Below are positions 830-53,232 of a stretch of 55,840 nucleotides of DNA, piece after piece (positions within the stretch are counted from its first letter, which is position 1; each line of letters begins with the position of its first letter). The stretch covers positions 1 through 55,840 of the forward strand of contig JAHFIJ010000003.1 of assembly GCA_023246445.1 (NCBI GenBank), written 5' to 3'. The stretch comes from Candidatus Woesearchaeota archaeon (lineage in GTDB: Archaea > Nanobdellota > Nanobdellia > SCGC-AAA011-G17 > JACQNH01). The translations under genes and the position numbers were made by a program. The notes under the pieces were generated by a model. It saw only the letters and a program-made list of their open reading frames with translations, made no database searches and was not told where the DNA came from.

Positions 830-873
830 ATTATAGAAATTTATTTAAAGCAGTTTTCATGAGATTTTAAGAT

Positions 874-1041
874 GCCGTGGTCGCATAATCTGGTAGTGCG
901 CTAATTTCGATTTTAACAAATCGAGAGCGTAAGCCTTGAGAGCTGGTGTCCGCAAGGACATACAGGTTCAAAAGAGTTTTCTTTAAAAAAGAAACCTTGT
1001 AAAGAAAGGTTGAAAGAACGCTGAAAGTCCTGTCCACGGCG
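874..1041 (+). tRNA. tRNA-Ser(UGA) with two non-canonical introns (about 904-932 and 972-1026)
   Basis: Acceptor GCCGTGG/CCACGGC; D-arm GCAT-AATCTGGTA-GTGC; spliced anticodon arm CTA|GC-CTTGAGA-GCTGG; class II variable arm TGTCC-GCAA-GGACA; spliced T-arm ACAGG-TTCAA|GT-CCTGT; G73. Confidence 0.82.
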
Positions 1042-1985: not shown

Positions 1986-2270
1986 ATGGGGGGAAATAAA
2001 ATGCATGTTGAAATGATAAAAATGTCCTCGAGGGGGCAGATAGTAATACCTCAAGATATCAGGGCGGAAATATGCGCTTCAGAAGGAACTATGTTCGCAG
2101 TAGTCAGTGGAAAAGACAGTATAGTTCTGAAGAAAGTTGAAATACCTTCTAAAGAAGATTTAATCTGCGAGCTTAAAGAAATAGCTAAAGAAGGAAAGAA
2201 AAGACTTGAAGCAAAAGGTATCAAAGAGACAGACATATCCGATATAGTAGAGAAGTCAAGAAAAAAATGA
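1986..2270 (+). CDS. AbrB/SpoVT-type antitoxin-like DNA-binding protein
   Basis: MSSRGQIVIPQDIRAEICASEGTMFAVV swapped-hairpin AbrB motif; overlaps PIN gene. Confidence 0.8.
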   Translation: MGGNKMHVEMIKMSSRGQIVIPQDIRAEICASEGTMFAVVSGKDSIVLKKVEIPSKEDLICELKEIAKEGKKRLEAKGIKETDISDIVEKSRKK

Positions 2271-2488
2271 TAACAAAAGTTGTATTTGATACAAATGTGC
2301 TAATATCTGCTACTTTATGGAATAATAGTGCAGCTCAGAAATTTTTATTTAGATGCATAAAAGAAAATATTCAAATCTTCTCATCCCAAGAAATAATTGA
2401 AGAATACAAAAAGATTTTAGCAAGAGATTTTGATTATAAGGAGCAGGAAGTTGAAAGAATATCAATGCATAAAAATAGTTCGTCCTGA
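2267..2488 (+). pseudogene. Truncated PIN-domain (COG1569-like) toxin
   Basis: N-terminal VVFDTNVLISATLW...SSQEIIEEYKKILARDFDYKEQEVERIS, then abrupt end; out-of-frame KIVRPEDL* follows. Confidence 0.65.
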
Positions 2489-6150: not shown

Positions 6151-6774
6151 TTATTGATTGCATAGGGCTAATTTGAGAGAGATTCCTGAGATTTGAGTTT
6201 GAATATTCCTGGAACTTGTAATTATATCGCCTTTGCATTCTCCGAACTCCAAAACATCTTTATTTTCTTCTTTAATTGAGATTTTAAATGTTTCTTTTGG
6301 CTTTAATAGTAATTTTAACATTTTTTCTGTTTCTTCCCTGACTAATTCGCAGGCGTTTTTATTACATGCGTTTAGCGATTGAGAGCATAATTTAACTGCT
6401 TCTTCCAGGTTAATTTCCGTGCAAAGCGTAACTTTAGAGATTATGTTTAACATTGAAGTAGATTTAGAGACATCCTTTACAGTAGGCAAAGAAGGGTTTT
6501 TATAGGATAATGTAACAAAGGTTAAGACCCCAAAGACAAGTAAGATTATTATGATAAGAAGACCTATTATCTCCTGTTGAGCAACCTTTCTTTTAGGAAA
6601 AGAAACGTTGGCGAAAGAAAACGGTGTTTGAATCTTTCTTTTAGGAAAAGAAACGTTGGCGAAAGAAAACGGTGTTTGAATCTTTCTTTTAGGAAAAGAA
6701 ACGTTGGCGAAAGAAAACTGTGTTTGAATCTTTCTTTTAGGAAAATTTAAAGGATTTTGAATTGTTTTCTTCAT
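6151..6774 (-). CDS. Pilin-like membrane protein with repeated N-terminal leader
   Basis: FPKRKIQTPFSFANVS repeats then FPKRKVAQQEIIGLLIIIILLVFGVL transmembrane helix. Confidence 0.65.
   Translation of the reverse strand: MKKTIQNPLNFPKRKIQTQFSFANVSFPKRKIQTPFSFANVSFPKRKIQTPFSFANVSFPKRKVAQQEIIGLLIIIILLVFGVLTFVTLSYKNPSLPTVKDVSKSTSMLNIISKVTLCTEINLEEAVKLCSQSLNACNKNACELVREETEKMLKLLLKPKETFKISIKEENKDVLEFGECKGDIITSSRNIQTQISGISLKLALCNQ
6586..6746. repeat. 48-bp tandem repeat, 3 copies plus a 17-bp partial
   Basis: ctttcttttaggaaaagaaacgttggcgaaagaaaacggtgtttgaat at 6586, 6634, 6682; partial at 6730. Confidence 0.95.
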
Positions 6775-7368
6775 TTAATCTACCTCCATTATTAATGAGC
6801 CTAGAGCATAAATATTTTTATTTGGGTAATATAATAGAACAGGATTTGAGATTATTGATCTTCTTTCTTTTAGATTTAAATCTTTTATTGTGAAATATAG
6901 GCAATTATCCGGGAAATCTGGTGAATTAAAATCTTGTAAGACACATTCTTTTGTAGATGTTTTTATTGGATATAATTGTTTAACCGTAATTCTTGCTTTT
7001 GGCAAAGTAACTGATTTTGATAATTCTGAACTCTTGAATAAAAGCAGTTTAGTAGCATCCAGGCAGATTTCTTTAGAGGCTCTGAAGCTACACTGAAATT
7101 CGGGCATATTTGGAATTGAAACTAGGTAAACCCCTAATCTTTCATTTATCAAATTTTGTGTTGAGGATTTAATGTCTGAGAATTGAAACTGATAATAATA
7201 GTAGATGCCAACTGACAATATAATTAAAAATACAAAGAGGACTGCTATTAATTCCATTGATTGAGTTTGAGCAACCTTTCTTTTTAGAAAAGAAAAGTTT
7301 GAAGAGCTGTGTTGAGCTTTATTATTCAATCCTTTATACCGAATAGAGCCTTTAGTAGAGAGAAACAC
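6775..7368 (-). CDS. Pilin-like membrane protein
   Basis: FLKRKVAQTQSMELIAVLFVFLIILSVGIYYYY: basic leader, Q/E near the start of the hydrophobic helix. Confidence 0.6.
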   Translation of the reverse strand: MFLSTKGSIRYKGLNNKAQHSSSNFSFLKRKVAQTQSMELIAVLFVFLIILSVGIYYYYQFQFSDIKSSTQNLINERLGVYLVSIPNMPEFQCSFRASKEICLDATKLLLFKSSELSKSVTLPKARITVKQLYPIKTSTKECVLQDFNSPDFPDNCLYFTIKDLNLKERRSIISNPVLLYYPNKNIYALGSLIMEVD

Positions 7369-53013: not shown

Positions 53014-53052
53014 TTTAGAAACTTTTAAAAGAAGACTTGTTTTAATTATTTT

Positions 53053-53137
53053 GGGACAGTAGCTCAGCCTGGGAGAGCATACGGCTGAAGTTTATATGGA
53101 CACCGTAGTATCGGGGGTTCAAATCCCCCCTGTCCCA
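53053..53137 (+). tRNA. tRNA-Phe(GAA) with 11-nt intron at 37/38 (53091-53101)
   Basis: GGGACAG/CTGTCCC acceptor; GCTCAGCCTGGGAGAGC D-arm; TACGG-CTGAAG|A-CCGTA; GGGGG-TTCAAAT-CCCCC; A73. Confidence 0.92.
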
Positions 53138-53232
53138 TTTTTTACGTTCTCTGGTGCATTAACTGGTCTTAAAAAATAAAAAGAATTAAGGATAATTTTA
53201 GAGGATGGAAAGATTGTTATTGAAAAAGAAAA

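Follow-up and report, generated by a model that had tools for sequence, protein, structure and literature searches.

Introduction

The closest described counterparts of the locus studied here are interrupted tRNA genes of other archaea, in which positions 29/30 and 59/60 are both listed intron sites (PMC4090602, PMC4033280). The Thermoproteales have multi-intron tRNA genes and large-scale intron transposition, as the work of Sugahara 2008 and Fujishima 2010 is summarised in later papers (PMC4090602, PMC4033280). A 2014 review described the mechanism that moves archaeal tRNA introns between genes as unknown (PMC4090602). Non-canonical introns were reported with tRNAscan-SE 2.0 mainly in Crenarchaeota and Thaumarchaeota (PMC8450103), and have been tied to (alpha-beta)2 or epsilon2 forms of the splicing endonuclease EndA that carry special loops (PMC6379350, PMC12397907). 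The alpha4 form takes only strict bulge-helix-bulge (BHB) motifs (PMC6379350).

We analysed a stretch of 55,840 nucleotides (the window) from a Candidatus Woesearchaeota archaeon whose assembly comprises 883 kb in 46 contigs and is 90.8% complete. Near its start lies what is very probably a functional tRNA-Ser(UGA) gene with two introns removed by EndA, the interior of intron B being a hairpin element repeated in the lineage. The Woesearchaeota introns resemble those of the Thermoproteales in occupying positions 29/30 and 59/60, in having BHB or relaxed motifs and in being nearly identical across tRNA species. However, the Thermoproteales have an (alpha-beta)2 EndA with the CSL, whereas here there is a single alpha-type EndA, and the Woesearchaeota intron core also lies in 23S rRNA and outside RNA genes, of which we found no report in a literature search of incomplete coverage. 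Nanoarchaeum equitans and ARMAN, which are also small archaea of DPANN type, likewise have tRNA introns in unusual places, but their EndA is (alpha-beta)2 or epsilon2 (PMC6379350, PMC12397907), and here there is one alpha-type gene of 194 aa.

The 23S rRNA inserts described below are like archaeal rRNA BHB introns in that their flanks can form a BHB. They are unlike them in being only 42-46 nt long, too short to hold a homing endonuclease gene, and in having a core in common with tRNA introns. Rickettsia palindromic elements are small palindromic repeats that lie either in non-coding DNA or, in frame, inside proteins. The Woesearchaeota element recalls them, as a lead for comparison, by occurring in both kinds of site, but it is archaeal, much shorter, and fits removal from RNA by EndA inside tRNA and rRNA. 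No literature report of T-loop introns in DPANN or Woesearchaeota was found in a search that most subscription papers lay outside. What appears to be new here is that such introns occur in this lineage and on this scale, and that the element is dispersed; both intron positions were already known in archaea.

Results

A serine tRNA gene with two introns

The original prediction had placed a tRNA-Ser(UGA) with two non-canonical introns, one of them in the T-loop, at this site (Table 1), and the analysis bore it out. Removing 904-932 and 973-1027 leaves an 84-nt RNA whose minimum free energy fold is a complete serine cloverleaf (-35.0 kcal/mol), with the UGA anticodon, long variable arm and G73 of a tRNA-Ser, and both introns are present in a sister genome. 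The parts earlier described as intact, the acceptor, D-stem, serine-type long variable arm and G73, could all be read directly in the sequence. The acceptor is formed by GCCGTGG 874-880 and CCACGGC 1034-1040, with G73 next to it at position 1041; GCAT/GTGC forms the D-stem and TGTCC-GCAA-GGACA the variable arm, and the T-stem pairs ACAGG 962-966 with CCTGT 1029-1033. The anticodon, at 937-939, sits in the loop CUUGAGA.

Table 1. Features of the serine tRNA gene and its surroundings, with positions in the window
Feature	Position	Strand	Basis
Possible TATA-like box TTTAAA (archaeal), 25-30 nt 5' of the tRNA	844..849	+	Sequence
Exon 1 of tRNA-Ser(UGA): acceptor 5' strand, D-arm, anticodon-stem nt 27-29	874..903	+	Sequence, mature fold, sister gene L149
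Intron A, 29 nt, position 29/30	904..932	+	hBH pairing; kept in sister genome
Exon 2: anticodon-stem nt 30-31, anticodon loop, variable arm, T-stem 5' strand, T-loop nt 54-59	933..972	+	Sequence, fold
Intron B, 55 nt, T-loop position 59/60	973..1027	+	BHB geometry, R1 and R2 matches
Exon 3: U60, T-stem 3' strand, acceptor 3' strand, G73	1028..1041	+	Sequence, fold
Tandem copies of the element family, 3.3 x 48 bp	6586..6745	+	R2 E about 4e-4; antisense to pilin-like ORF 6151-6774(-)

The unspliced gene was detected neither by ARAGORN nor by Rfam at the gathering score. A second intact tRNA-Ser(UGA), which the original prediction had named as a finding that would count against it, was sought in the 90.8%-complete assembly with the mature sequence and not found. 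Among serine codons, UCA is the one used most often in 20 ORFs of the window (276 occurrences, 29.7 per 1000 codons).

In the sister genome the same gene (L149) keeps intron A in position and sequence. Three stem pairs co-vary between the two genomes: 2:71 (C-G/U-A), 5:68 (U-A/C-G) and 29:41 (A-U/G-C). As pair 29:41 spans intron A, its covariation indicates that selection acts on the spliced form, and the sister gene with both introns, together with the compensatory stem changes, argues that the two-intron gene is not a product of chance. We infer that both introns are spliced out and the exons ligated.

Intron boundaries and splicing motifs

Intron A lies exactly where it had been predicted. 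GCGC 898-901 pairs with GCGU 927-930 (GCGT in the DNA), and the flanking bulges, UA^A 902-904 and AA^G 931-933, would be cut after the second base; the exons joined in this way form a perfect anticodon stem. Drawn by hand, the inner helix has 9 bp (905-913/918-926) and a UAAC loop; the minimum free energy fold gives a closely related register. On the outer side a U-C mismatch (897/934) is followed by two pairs, which falls short of the outer helix of a full BHB, and by its predicted pairing intron A is of the relaxed hBH form. An early placement of the helix by hand, CGCU/AGCG, was dropped, as it gave the wrong exon join.

Intron B has all the parts of a full BHB, with two 3-nt bulges, a 4-bp helix, and outer and inner helices. 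The exon sequence UUCA 967-970 (T54-A57) pairs with UGAA 1022-1025 near the 3' end of the intron, the bulges are AA^A 971-973 and AG^U 1026-1028, and the outer helix is the 5-bp T-stem; together these would delimit the intron. The inner helix by the bulges is imperfect, a G-C pair and a mismatch preceding five pairs. The length of 55 nt originally given stands, but the position, 972-1026, moves one base to the right. Boundaries at 973-1027 appear best placed by the recurring BHB geometry, because most related T-loop introns fit position 59/60 with bulges AAN and, usually, AGU. Removal in this register leaves the T-loop UUCAAAU, and the alternative register, 972-1026, a loop of equal length. 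The original prediction had been unable to draw a textbook BHB for either intron; a BHB-type motif can be drawn for both, in the relaxed hBH form for intron A.

Two models were used to search for related sequences: R1, a covariance model built from nine T-arms with introns, and R2, a sequence-only model of the hairpin core. R1 scores the intron B site at 70.2 bits (E=5.7e-14), with the intron B sequence itself among its nine training sequences. R2 matches intron B with E=1.7e-6, and the dispersed hairpin core corresponds to about 973-1008.

The splicing endonuclease

A genome search identified one EndA gene, of 194 aa, with N- and C-terminal domains in a single reading frame, where PF01974 and PF02778 each match once, and its catalytic Tyr, His and Lys residues align to those of M. 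jannaschii 1a79. A second EndA subunit was not found in the 90.8%-complete assembly. By these gene characters (a single gene, both domains, the catalytic residues and no second subunit gene) the enzyme is predicted to be of the alpha4 type. In the alignment it lacks an 11-residue segment of S. tokodaii 2cv8, leaving a gap after YGEPI. We read the missing segment as the CSL, and on this reading the protein is not one of the CSL-bearing enzymes of relaxed specificity. The class of endonuclease, an open question in the original prediction, is thus narrowed to a single alpha-type EndA gene. The protein is 79% identical to a homologue in a Woesearchaeota MAG, and most of its other named relatives are from Woesearchaeota or Nanoarchaeota, which makes a woesearchaeotal host the most likely. 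Exactly one EndA gene is present in 95 of the 96 EndA-positive genomes of the order; the sister genome has two matches, but its assembly is 6% contaminated.

T-loop introns in the genome and its relatives

About 15 tRNA genes in this genome have T-loop introns at position 59/60, most with a common hairpin core, as counted by R1 search, removal of the inserts in silico and ARAGORN on the spliced sequences. They are Ser(UGA), Ser(GGA), Leu(GAG), Leu(CAA), Ala(GGC), Ala(UGC), Arg(GCG), Arg(UCG), Arg(CCU), Glu(UUC), Gln(UUG), Thr(UGU), Ile(GAU), Val(GAC) and Lys(UUU). Assignment by hand was needed for five of these (Arg(CCU), Leu(CAA), Lys(UUU), Ala(UGC) and Ser(UGA)), where ARAGORN was led astray by a second intron or made no call. 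The introns of Ser(UGA), Arg(UCG) and Ala(GGC) have a 35-base core in common at 34-35/35. R1 matches occur in 21 of the 103 genomes of the order, and in 24 of 371 sampled genomes of the phylum, all within one class.

The full 4-bp h helix was present in 42 of 58 candidate T-loop inserts, compared with 3% for random intron 4-mers, a share that is biased upwards because the loci were mostly fetched with R1, which rewards the h helix. The 58 were picked without requiring the helix, and some of those that do not fit are duplicate registers or chance stems. Exon position 57 pairs as A-U in 35, G-C in seven and G-U in three, and never as A-C. Because every example in the training of R1 had A-U here, that training does not account for the G-C cases.

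Other tRNA genes showed peculiarities of their own. A tRNA-Ala(UGC) gene adjoining the 16S rRNA gene (L022 1501-1634) carries both an apparent D-loop intron and a T-loop intron, with a second bulge of 4 rather than 3 nt. In the tRNA-Phe(GAA) gene at 53052-53138 of the window, the anticodon loop holds a very short insert in its canonical 37/38 region. One and the same tRNA-Leu(UAG) gene was seen at the end of contig C6 and again at the end of C30 (L014, L015), which suggests an assembly overlap.

The core at other RNA sites

In relatives the core also occurs in tRNA introns of the D-loop (L240, L252) and near the anticodon (L247, L248), and in the 23S rRNA of two related families, as inserts of 46 nt (L234) and 42 nt (L244). 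The two 23S inserts share one position in the archaeal LSU model, following AGAGCUCA. As no uninterrupted copy of the insertion site was found among the loci examined, the Rfam model was taken as reference. In L234, GCUC/GAGU with bulges AUA and AAA form a BHB, and the resulting join, CUCAU-AUCGACGG, is one we take to be conserved 23S sequence. The same L234 23S gene carries a group I intron (2132-2420(-)), and the L244 gene has a further large insert of about 567 nt.

Copies outside RNA genes

In this genome 41 sites matched R2 at an E value of 0.1 or below, many of them outside tRNA genes: on contigs C15 and C12 (both tandem), C29, C32, C40, C14, C23, C44, C35 and C8, and at 6586-6745 of the window. 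As R2 was trained partly on non-tRNA copies, a separate test was made with the 35-base intron core. It matched the copies on C14 and C40, which both adjoin protein genes, at 35/35 and 34/35. The best match in ten simulated 883-kb genomes (order-3) was 24-27/35, which rules out chance AT-rich similarity for these two. The remaining copies match the T-loop core at 22-27/35, many at 22-25/35, and are recognised by R2 only. Rfam gave no identity for the element in the window.

The copies lie dispersed at unrelated sites. Those on C12, C40 and C29 are between genes or over a stop codon, and those on C32 and C8 read in frame inside ORFs. In both sister genomes the C-terminal tail of GrpE is element-derived at the same place, ahead of dnaK (L193, L249). 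The 48-bp tandem copies in the window give 16-aa repeats (IQTPFSFANVSFPKRK) in ORF 6151-6774(-), just before a hydrophobic segment, and the neighbouring ORF 6775-7368(-) has one stretch related to them. EndA and RNase Z are divergent genes in this genome, and a weak copy lies between them at about 1501-1540 of L208; in another Woesearchaeota a copy lies just 5' of EndA (L080 2691-2724); either may be coincidence.

Discussion

In the gene itself, EndA would excise both introns from the tRNA-Ser(UGA) precursor, and RtcB would presumably join the exon ends after cutting. The interior of intron B would be a copy of a hairpin element of roughly 36-40 nt that is repeated in the lineage. A copy entering a tRNA or rRNA gene could persist at sites where a BHB motif is made complete by the host sequence, since EndA would then cut it out of the RNA; elsewhere, copies might be retained at the borders of genes or, within proteins, as short stretches of peptide that are tolerated. 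We infer that the element has moved. We put forward tentatively, as a plausible account that could well prove wrong, that a small mobile Woesearchaeota hairpin doubles as an intron, spliced by an alpha-only EndA at tRNA and rRNA sites that complete the BHB and an ordinary palindromic repeat elsewhere. If this is true, the T-loop tRNA introns of the lineage originate from a transposable repeat.

Other readings have to be set against this one. The gene could be a decayed pseudogene, interrupted by repeats and never spliced: standard finders miss it, and its splicing is predicted from the sequence. It is, however, the only tRNA-Ser(UGA) found in the 90.8%-complete assembly, UCA is common in the window, its stems have changed in a compensatory way between sister genomes, as expected from selection on the spliced form, and both introns satisfy BHB-type rules. 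We rejected this reading as extremely improbable, on the failure to find a second gene in that assembly, the compensatory changes and the codon usage. It is also quite unlikely that the T-loop introns spread solely by gene conversion through the conserved T-arm, with no mobile element involved. The constant 59/60 position and the near identity of the Ser(UGA), Arg(UCG) and Ala(GGC) introns would fit such a process, but the core is also found at other tRNA positions and in 23S rRNA, and the copies beside protein genes that match it at 34-35/35 have no T-arm homology.

The copies outside RNA genes raise two further alternatives. As many lie between genes or over a stop codon, the hairpin could be a regulatory or processing signal of gene borders, such as a terminator or RNA cleavage site, that was later trapped in tRNAs. 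This seems unlikely to us, since copies also occur inside reading frames, in either orientation and in tandem arrays, and are more conserved in sequence than a T-rich hairpin needs. Alternatively, these copies might be mRNA introns excised by EndA, as in archaeal cbf5; their core is that of the excised introns, and the EndA of archaea can act on mRNA (PMC12397907). Yet on inspection by hand the flanking h pairing could not be drawn for the copies on C40 and C15, and several copies read as in-frame peptide, which makes excision from mRNA very unlikely.

The enzyme provides a point against our own main explanation, as the rule that an alpha4 EndA takes only strict BHB motifs conflicts with the relaxed form of intron A. 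The T-loop intron is a strict BHB and would not need a specificity loop, but intron A might. A loopless, single alpha-type EndA in a genome with many non-canonical introns calls into question the rule that these occur only with specificity-loop enzymes. As the core occurs both as a tRNA or rRNA intron and at ordinary sites within one lineage, a direct comparison of insertion sites, empty sites and enzymes can be made, and the hairpin family thus allows ideas on the spread of archaeal tRNA introns to be tested. The tRNA annotation of such small genomes also overlooks interrupted genes: ARAGORN and Rfam missed several others here besides tRNA-Ser(UGA).

A Y1 (REP-type) transposase was considered as the mover of the element. 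Y1 transposases are present in 7 of the 15 element-positive genomes and in 27 of the 88 others, and there are none in the element-rich genomes G054 and G080. With no clear association with its distribution, they do not track the element and so do not explain its movement. A reverse-transcriptase-like ORF, by eye similar to the diversity-generating type, was seen at L209 1020-2222, with a weak R2 match inside it.
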